A stretch of 64,000 bases of DNA from Comamonadaceae bacterium (GTDB taxonomy: Bacteria; Pseudomonadota; Gammaproteobacteria; Burkholderiales; Burkholderiaceae_C), in NCBI GenBank assembly GCA_947372865.1, contig CANBVJ010000002.1, forward strand, positions 1 to 64,000. Reading direction: 5' to 3'. How positions within the stretch are numbered: the first letter of the stretch is position 1; every line of letters begins with the position of its first letter. This document shows, in pieces, positions 38,589 through 64,000 of this stretch. Position numbers and translations under genes: made by a program. The notes below the pieces were generated by a model. The model was not told the DNA's origin. It saw nothing but the letters and a program-made list of their open reading frames with translations, and made no database searches.

Positions 38589-38616
38589 TTGCAAAACGAA
38601 TAAAGCTGGATAAAAA
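38589..38616 (+). promoter_or_regulatory. Candidate lexA promoter
   Basis: TTGCAA (38589-38594), a 16-bp spacer and TAAAAA (38611-38616). Both LexA boxes overlap or follow this -10, the arrangement expected for autorepression. Confidence 0.5.
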
Positions 38617-38621
38617 TACAG
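38606..38621 (+). promoter_or_regulatory. LexA box 1 at lexA
   Basis: CTGGATAAAAATACAG matches the proteobacterial CTGT-N8-ACAG consensus at 7 of 8 fixed positions with an AT-rich centre. Confidence 0.7.
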
Positions 38622-38624
38622 CCA

Positions 38625-38640
38625 CTGTTTAAGATTACAG
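38625..38640 (+). promoter_or_regulatory. LexA box 2 at lexA
   Basis: CTGTTTAAGATTACAG is a perfect CTGT-N8-ACAG palindrome, 3 bp after box 1 and 43 bp before the lexA ATG. Two adjacent boxes at lexA also occur in E. coli. Confidence 0.85.
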
Positions 38641-38683: not shown

Positions 38684-39358
38684 ATGCTTGAAACCTTGAA
38701 ATTGACTGCCCGCCAGCAAGAAATCCTGACCCTGATTGAAAGCGCCATTGCGCGCACCGGTGCGCCCCCTACCCGCGCTGAAATCGCCACCGAACTCGGT
38801 TTCAAGTCCGCTAACGCTGCCGAAGAGCATCTCCAGGCCCTGGCCCGCAAGGGTGCCATTGAACTGGTCAGCGGCACTTCTCGGGGCATCCGCTTGCGCG
38901 GACAGTCCTTGCGCGACCTGCACGTATCGCGCTCCAAACAGCTTTCCTTGGGCATCCCTGGCCTGGCGCAACTGTCATTGCCCCTGATTGGCCGGGTGGC
39001 AGCAGGCTCGCCCATCCTAGCGCAAGAGCATGTCGAGCAAACCTATTACGTGGAGCACAGCCTGTTTCAACGCCAACCGGACTATCTTCTCAAGGTCAGC
39101 GGCATGTCCATGCGCGACGTGGGCATCATGGACGGCGATTTGCTGGCCGTGCAATCGACCAAAGAGGCCAAAAATGGCCAGATCATTGTGGCCCGCATAG
39201 GCGAAGAAGTAACGGTCAAGCGCTTTCGGCGCAACAAGCACCTGATTGAGCTGCACCCAGAAAACCCCGATTTCCAGGTCATTGTGGTCGAGCCTGGTGA
39301 GCCCTTCGAGATTGAGGGCCTGGCGGTCGGCCTGATTCGCAACACCATGATCATGTAA
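38684..39358 (+). CDS. lexA: LexA repressor
   Basis: SOS repressor that cleaves itself on RecA filaments. 224 residues. N-terminal winged helix ([40 protein letters not shown]). The Ala107-Gly108 cleavage site is in [13 protein letters not shown]; the catalytic dyad is Ser142 in [11 protein letters not shown] and Lys179 in VTVKRFRR, 37 residues apart as in E. coli. AGGAG precedes the ATG. Two LexA boxes lie just upstream. A small gene follows after 19 bp. Confidence 0.98.
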
Positions 39359-62543: not shown

Positions 62544-63521
62544 ATGGCGATTGTTTTAGCCCCGATGGAGGGCCTGCTGGACTTTGTGCTGCGCGACATC
62601 CTGACCCGGGTGGGCGGCATTGACCGCTGTGTGTCCGAATTCATCCGCGTCACCAACACCTTGCTGCCCGAGCGCGCCTTTGTGCGCGTGGTGCCCGAGT
62701 TGCTGACCGGTGGCCGCACGCTCTCGGGCGTGCCCGTGCGGCCCCAGTTATTGGGGTCAGACCCGCATTGCCTGGCCGACAACGCAGCGCGCGTGGCGGG
62801 CCTGGGCGCTGATGGCGTGGACCTGAACTTTGGCTGCCCGGCCAAGGTCGTCAACCGCCACGGCGGTGGCGCGGCCTTGCTGGAAGACCCGGAGTTGCTG
62901 TTCCAGATCGTGTCCGCCGTGCGCCGCGCCGTGCCTGCGCACCAGGTGGTGTCGGCCAAGATGCGCTTGGGCTTTCATGACGACCGCCGGGCCGAAGAAT
63001 GCGCGCTGGCCTTGGAGGCCGGAGGCGCGGGCGAGATTGTGGTGCACGCCCGCACCCGCGCCGATGCTTACCGCCCGCCCGCCTACTGGGGCCGCATTGC
63101 AGACATTGCCGCCGTGGTGCGCACGCCACTGGTGGCCAATGGCGAGATCTGGAACGTGCAAGACGCGCAGGCCTGCCGCGCCGAGTCGGGCTGCCACACG
63201 CTGATGCTGGGGCGCGGCATCGTCAGCTACCCCGGCCTGGCGCACGCCATTGCCCAGGCTGCGGGGCAAACCGCCCCCACGCAGGTGACCGACTGGCCGG
63301 CGTTGCATCCGCACATCGCCAGCTTTTGGCAACTGGTGCGCGCCACGCTAGAGCGCCGCCAGCAGGCCGGGCGCCTCAAGCAATGGCTCAACTTTTTGCG
63401 CCGCCACTATCCGCAGGCGCAGCTTGCTTACAACGCGCTCAAGGCGGTGAACGATGTGGCGGTGATTGACGCTTGGGTGGCGGGGCTGGGTGTCGGAAAA
63501 TTGAACACAAATGCTGTATAA
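62544..63521 (+). CDS. dusC: tRNA-dihydrouridine(16) synthase DusC
   Basis: FMN-dependent reductase of U16 in tRNA. 325 residues. FMN barrel start VLAPMEGLLDFVLRDILTRV; the catalytic Cys in DLNFGCPAKVVNRHGGGA; VSAKMRLGFHD, EIVVHARTRADAYRPPAYWG and the phosphate-binding VANGEIWN and LMLGRGIVSYPGL. APMEG and the DRCVSEFIRV variant fit DusC. Its last codons overlap the LexA-box match before the methyltransferase gene. Confidence 0.95.
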   Translation: MAIVLAPMEGLLDFVLRDILTRVGGIDRCVSEFIRVTNTLLPERAFVRVVPELLTGGRTLSGVPVRPQLLGSDPHCLADNAARVAGLGADGVDLNFGCPAKVVNRHGGGAALLEDPELLFQIVSAVRRAVPAHQVVSAKMRLGFHDDRRAEECALALEAGGAGEIVVHARTRADAYRPPAYWGRIADIAAVVRTPLVANGEIWNVQDAQACRAESGCHTLMLGRGIVSYPGLAHAIAQAAGQTAPTQVTDWPALHPHIASFWQLVRATLERRQQAGRLKQWLNFLRRHYPQAQLAYNALKAVNDVAVIDAWVAGLGVGKLNTNAV

Positions 63522-63529
63522 AATAACAG
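63514..63529 (+). promoter_or_regulatory. Perfect LexA-box match before the DNA methyltransferase
   Basis: CTGTATAAAATAACAG fits CTGT-N8-ACAG at all fixed positions, with the AT-rich centre of strong boxes. It straddles the dusC stop codon and ends 46 bp before the methyltransferase ATG. By chance such a 16-mer is expected about once in 65 kb, so the match alone is not proof. Confidence 0.5.
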
Positions 63530-63575: not shown

Positions 63576-64000
63576 ATGGCACTTCAATCAATCGAAATTT
63601 GCGCTGGCGCCGGTGGTCAGGCTTTGGGACTGGAGCAGGCCGGTTTTGAACATGCGAGTCTGGTTGAAATAGAAGCCCCCGCCTGCCAGACACTGCGCAT
63701 GAACCGGCCTAACTGGAACGTAGTGGAAGCCGATGTACACCAGTACAGCGCAGACCGCTGGAAGGGTGTCGCACTGTTTGCAGGCGGCGTACCTTGCCCG
63801 CCGTTTTCCAAGGCCGGCAAGCAGTTGGGCCACGACGATGAACGCGATCTCTTTCCCCAGGCAATCCGCCTGGTGGACGAATGTAAGCCGCAAGCCGTGA
63901 TGCTGGAAAACGTGCGTGGTTTGCTAGATCCAATGTTTGCCGACTACCGCGCCAAGATCGTGTCCGATCTGGCCAAGCTGGGCTACGTGGGCGAATGGAA
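63576..64000 (+). CDS. DNA (cytosine-5-)-methyltransferase, 5' part only
   Basis: The first 141 codons of a CDS that runs off the right edge and so is missing from the ORF track. Conserved motifs of C5 cytosine methyltransferases: motif I EICAGAGGQALGLEQAGF (SAM binding), motif IV GGVPCPPFSKAGKQ with catalytic Cys74, and motif VI LENVRG. It could be an orphan methylase or part of a restriction-modification or defence set beyond the window. It lies after the core genes, behind an AT-rich spacer, which suggests the start of an acquired region. Recognition site unknown. Confidence 0.9.
   Translation, partial: MALQSIEICAGAGGQALGLEQAGFEHASLVEIEAPACQTLRMNRPNWNVVEADVHQYSADRWKGVALFAGGVPCPPFSKAGKQLGHDDERDLFPQAIRLVDECKPQAVMLENVRGLLDPMFADYRAKIVSDLAKLGYVGEW

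Follow-up and report, generated by a model that had tools for sequence, protein, structure and literature searches.

Near the right-hand end of the 64,000-nucleotide stretch of Comamonadaceae DNA that we analyzed (the window) begins a two-gene operon that, judged by its gene families, is a type II restriction-modification (R-M) system, with a C5-cytosine methylase gene first and a predicted HNH endonuclease gene second. The operon is very probably under the control of the host repressor LexA. We regard SOS control as strongly supported because the LexA box is conserved upstream of orthologues and because it switches to the alphaproteobacterial motif in alphaproteobacterial hosts. Type II R-M systems are a known kind of element, and it is the mode of control, by LexA, that is new as far as openly searchable papers show. 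The relevant features are as follows (window coordinates unless stated otherwise).

62544..63521, + strand: tRNA-dihydrouridine synthase (dus-like) gene, left border of the inserted R-M operon (open reading frame; sister genome)
63514..63529, + strand: predicted LexA box (SOS operator) CTGTATAAAATAACAG of the R-M operon (pattern and matrix scans; conserved upstream of orthologues)
63576..64000, + strand: 5' part of the C5-cytosine methyltransferase gene, 319 aa, which runs on to contig position 64535 (open reading frame; PF00145; PADLOC MTase_II)
contig 64561-65178, beyond the window: predicted HNH restriction endonuclease gene, 205 aa (open reading frame on L005; PF01844; PADLOC REase_II)
38606..38621, + strand: LexA box 1 of lexA, CTGGATAAAAATACAG, one mismatch (matrix score 21.0)
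38625..38640, + strand: LexA box 2 of lexA, CTGTTTAAGATTACAG (pattern scan; matrix score 18.8)
38684..39358, + strand: lexA, the presumed repressor, 224 aa (TIGR00498, E=5.7e-69, above the curated cut-off)

The methylase matches the Pfam family PF00145 (DNA_methylase) over nearly its whole length (E=6.8e-68) and keeps the conserved PCPPFS, ENV and QIGNAFPPPVA motifs. An earlier note on this DNA had called it a DNA cytosine methyltransferase, which is borne out, and had missed the nuclease gene that lies past the window edge. This second gene is co-directional with the first, starts 25 nt downstream of its end, and encodes a winged-helix/HNH protein (Pfam PF01844, HNH, E=3.1e-8) whose HNH residues are conserved across 34 relatives. 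The PADLOC matches include both a type II methylase and a type II restriction enzyme. That the methylase stands alone is ruled out by the nuclease gene downstream of it. The winged-helix/HNH family, represented by L005:4562-5176 and 33 relatives that are 55-81% identical to it, occurs in Proteobacteria, Cyanobacteria, Bacteroidota, Spirochaetota and other groups. In three loci (L051, L052 and L092) the HNH frame is broken early and the methylase is intact, and L092 retains its LexA box.

The next gene after the HNH gene, on the rest of the contig (L005) and on the opposite strand, encodes a NYN-domain protein. A sister genome whose dus gene is 92% identical carries hemH, dus, NYN and FAH genes consecutively with no R-M genes among them, and its dus-NYN gap is about 400 nt; the R-M operon is therefore an insertion at that site. 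The suggestion of a phage- or defense-linked function survives in its second half, since the operon is of the type II R-M kind, and fails in its first, since the insertion is chromosomal, between dus and the NYN-domain gene. A phage or prophage location was likewise rejected, given the chromosomal neighbors hemH-dus and NYN-FAH and the empty site in the sister genome. Only 2 of 50,697 phage records contain a relative. Most plasmid-borne and viral relatives are paired with NgoMIV and lack the box, and two NaeI-paired viral contigs carry the alphaproteobacterial LexA box.

A pattern scan of the window places a perfect CTGT-N8-ACAG, CTGTATAAAATAACAG, on the plus strand at exactly the position that the earlier note had given, with 46 nt between its end and the methylase ATG at 63576, and the upstream dus frame ends 8 nt into the box. 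That note had also warned that about one chance match is expected per window, and the counts agree: the window holds two such sites against a mean of 0.72 in shuffled versions, 16 of 100 of which have two or more, and the whole 3.0-Mb genome holds 12, compared with 9 for the pattern read backwards. As evidence the bare pattern is weak, too near chance to decide, and these counts are what speaks for the box being a chance match ahead of a constitutive methylase.

A scoring matrix was made from seven other SOS boxes of the same genome, with the R-M box left out; members of the SOS regulon were identified by pattern matches, and their gene names come from reading translations, lexA alone being confirmed with a family model. 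The R-M box scores 21.9, which makes it the top LexA site of the window, above both lexA boxes, whose likeness to it the earlier note had pointed out; the next site in the 64 kb scores 10.2. Sites of the CTGT-N8-ACAG form with an AT-rich core precede lexA, imuA, dnaE2, radA and parE and also lie between glnK and comM; these boxes score from 17 to 25, and the R-M box falls within that range, between the dnaE2 box (25.1) and those of lexA. No sigma-70-like promoter was recognized at the R-M box of the Comamonadaceae genome. In at least four orthologous loci (L020, L086, L088 and L092), the box is preceded, at a distance of 3-4 nt, by a GATAAT-like element; LexA bound to the box would therefore cover the transcription start and block both genes.

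Conservation at orthologous loci, the check that the earlier note had proposed for its SOS lead, strongly supports the proposal. A search of 301 genomes of the same family yielded ten close orthologues (66-72% identity), three of which are preceded by a perfect box (at -35, -97 and -24) and others by near-boxes. Eighty more orthologues were added from public genomes, and perfect class-specific boxes were counted from -150 to -5 relative to the start, with chance expectations per locus (0.0008 for CTGT-N8-ACAG and 0.0066 for GTTC-N7-GTTC, the LexA motif of Alphaproteobacteria) drawn from the same loci outside this upstream region. Among betaproteobacterial loci, CTGT-N8-ACAG precedes 11 of the 23 HNH-paired methylases, where about 0.02 would be expected, as well as 1 of 3 NaeI-paired and 0 of 13 NgoMIV-paired ones; it is absent from all 12 gammaproteobacterial and all 20 alphaproteobacterial loci. 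The alphaproteobacterial loci instead carry GTTC-N7-GTTC in 11 of 20 cases against about 0.13 expected (NaeI-paired 7/11, HNH-paired 1/2, NgoMIV-paired 2/6, and one further locus), and this motif appears in only 1 of 39 betaproteobacterial loci. It is also the LexA motif given for Caulobacter (PMC12907096).

Because the orthologue set contains near-identical rows, we recounted after removing redundant upstream regions and without presupposing a motif, enumerating all inverted and direct 4-mer repeats with spacers of 2-14. CTGT/8/ACAG ranks first in the betaproteobacterial HNH-paired set (9 of 21) and GAAC/7/GAAC in the alphaproteobacterial set (11 of 20), and repeats that do not overlap these boxes reach 2-5 at most. 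Three NaeI-type loci found blind among 399 genomes of the phylum all carry GTTC-N7-GTTC. A chance match is thus highly improbable, with the R-M box scoring as high as the lexA boxes and a class-matched motif conserved at orthologues that comes first in an unbiased enumeration. Control by a different repressor with a similar palindrome might be entertained, since LexA is predicted as the regulator from sequence; yet the motif equals the lexA, imuA and dnaE2 boxes of the same genome and changes to the alphaproteobacterial LexA form in Alphaproteobacteria, and we give this explanation hardly any credence.

LexA control is not universal in the family. A recognizable box is missing from roughly half of the HNH-paired relatives, loci of Gallionella, Nitrosomonas and Methylobacter among them, and from nearly all NgoMIV-paired ones. 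CGAAC-N4-GTTCG is a form of the Gram-positive LexA site, and one actinomycete relative, a single case, has a perfect copy: CGAACACATGTTCG, before the NgoMIV-paired methylase of L060, in an actinomycete bin.

Three unrelated nucleases partner this methylase family, namely the HNH protein, NaeI (PF09126) and NgoMIV (PF09015). The partner in our locus is the HNH protein and belongs to neither of the other two families. Partners have changed many times across the methylase tree, with 16 changes on the best one. Loci with an HNH or NaeI partner often have SOS boxes and those with an NgoMIV partner seldom do, although after correction for descent (6 independent pairs) partner type shows no significance as an independent predictor of the box. 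Sister rows with different nucleases share the box, as in our locus (HNH) and L017 (NaeI) and again in L116 (NaeI) and L123 (NgoMIV), and the box changes at least nine times on the tree, so it has been gained or lost repeatedly. Both NaeI and NgoMIV recognize GCCGGC, and so this sequence is probably the target of the whole methylase group, as judged solely from the swapping of these two partners.

As an intended negative control, we examined nineteen distant C5 methylases from the same family of bacteria. No LexA box was present at 17 of them, and perfect boxes at the remaining two (L027 and L028), which belong to another operon type composed of an N-terminally extended methylase, a 240-248-aa protein and a Vsr gene. 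In Burkholderiales-type genomes, L220, L221, L222 and L223 have a methylase with a 55-aa N-terminal extension, a protein of 240-248 aa, a Vsr gene and upstream LexA boxes, and the methylase frame of L222 contains two TGA stops. Boxes of this second family are perfect at -40 and -48, carry one mismatch in L222, and are again perfect at -43 in L223, a relative that belongs to a different family within the class; two more distant relatives lack the box. The 240-248-aa protein matches no Pfam or PADLOC family and is probably the nuclease. By these sequence comparisons, a second methylase/putative-nuclease/Vsr family, unrelated to the first, also has LexA boxes. The sequences suggest that damage-induced control of such defense systems may be widespread.

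The Vsr mismatch nuclease in this second SOS-boxed family is one reason to ask whether our HNH protein might be a modification-dependent or repair-type nuclease, and the operon an SOS-induced methylation or repair unit. Another is that the HNH protein comes closest, among solved structures, to the HNH domain of the modification-dependent enzyme EcoKMcrA, although the match is weak (E=0.017; by Foldseek E=7.8e-4 with a low TM-score). However, cutting sites that its own operon methylates would kill the host, methylases of this family also take NaeI and NgoMIV enzymes as interchangeable partners, and PADLOC assigns the protein to REase_II. We consider this interpretation unlikely, and treat the HNH protein as the predicted restriction enzyme of the pair.

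Type II R-M systems resemble toxin-antitoxin modules and must time the production of methylase and nuclease, a problem known to be solved by C proteins, by autoregulation and by antisense RNA. In our locus, the operon promoter would be repressed by host LexA, which at the transcription start would block methylase and nuclease together. DNA damage leads to RecA-driven cleavage of LexA, and this would release both genes, such that both proteins rise. What this arrangement accomplishes is a matter on which our preference is tentative. The function that we put first, at somewhat short of even confidence, is feedback in which LexA senses self-cleavage: if methylation fell behind, the nuclease would break the chromosome, SOS induction would cleave LexA, and the methylase-first operon would stay derepressed until the genome was protected again. 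We favor this role because the methylase gene comes first and because the R-M system itself gives rise to breaks.

Close behind it we place a function that is nearly as likely, in which LexA control serves defense after damage or phage attack, with incoming phage or conjugating DNA triggering the SOS response and thereby raising the nuclease against that DNA. R-M enzymes do guard against DNA entry, and the single box ahead of both genes means that the nuclease would rise too, but a methylase-first operon would shield the replicating phage as well, and the mobile NgoMIV-type copies usually lack the box. If LexA does act as a sensor of self-cleavage, it would give restriction systems without a control protein a homeostat encoded by the host. 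That it has been recruited for this role more than once, by at least two unrelated R-M families and across hosts whose LexA motifs differ, is a speculation that we rate as possible but less likely than not. Should the SOS link prove recurrent, damage, for example by phage or antibiotics, would alter restriction, methylation patterns and barriers to gene transfer, and the SOS-box prediction is concrete and cheap to check across many strains.

Several known systems resemble parts of this arrangement. R-M systems of the NaeI/NgoMIV type (GCCGGC) use the same methylase family, whose relatives adjoin NaeI or NgoMIV enzymes, and our methylase shares 65.5% identity with one from Neisseria gonorrhoeae; our locus differs in its unrelated winged-helix/HNH nuclease and in the LexA box of its promoter. 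In type II systems controlled by C proteins, such as PvuII, transcriptional control times the methylase and nuclease. Our locus would be alike in its transcriptional timing and has no C gene between box and nuclease; its regulator would instead be host LexA, tying control to DNA damage. For LexA control of a type II R-M operon we found no precedent in openly searchable full texts. The methylase operon ydiOP of Bacillus subtilis BsuM may be listed as LexA-controlled, and if so would be such a precedent.

The nearest published cases are the SOS-inducible, unlinked vsrA of Caulobacter (PMC12907096) and SymE (PMC1891008). Caulobacter has a solitary C5 methylase, ScmA, that acts on YGCCGGCR, and its vsrA gene, which encodes a Vsr-like nuclease, has a GTTC-N7-GTTC LexA site, shows damage-raised mRNA and is unlinked to the ScmA gene (PMC12907096). 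There the unlinked vsrA is the SOS gene, whereas in our locus a single LexA box stands before both the methylase and the nuclease gene. SymE/SymR is likewise a LexA-repressed module, with an SOS-induced toxin (a MazE-like antitoxin homologue) and antisense RNA regulation (PMC1891008), but unlike our locus it is not a type II R-M operon. In the alleviation of type I restriction (EcoKI, ClpXP), self-restriction is limited when unmethylated sites appear (PMC11109961, PMC4231737); this occurs by post-translational destruction of a nuclease subunit, whereas our operon would respond by transcriptional derepression through LexA.

Among the other SOS boxes of the genome, radA and a topoisomerase IV parE-like gene each have a perfect one directly upstream (G000 C33:20835 and C19:20499). 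The perfect box between glnK and comM, CTGTACAAATAAACAG, is present at two overlapping contig ends (G000 C29:38815-38830 and C47:26834-26849), and would bring a natural-transformation helicase or a PII gene under SOS control.
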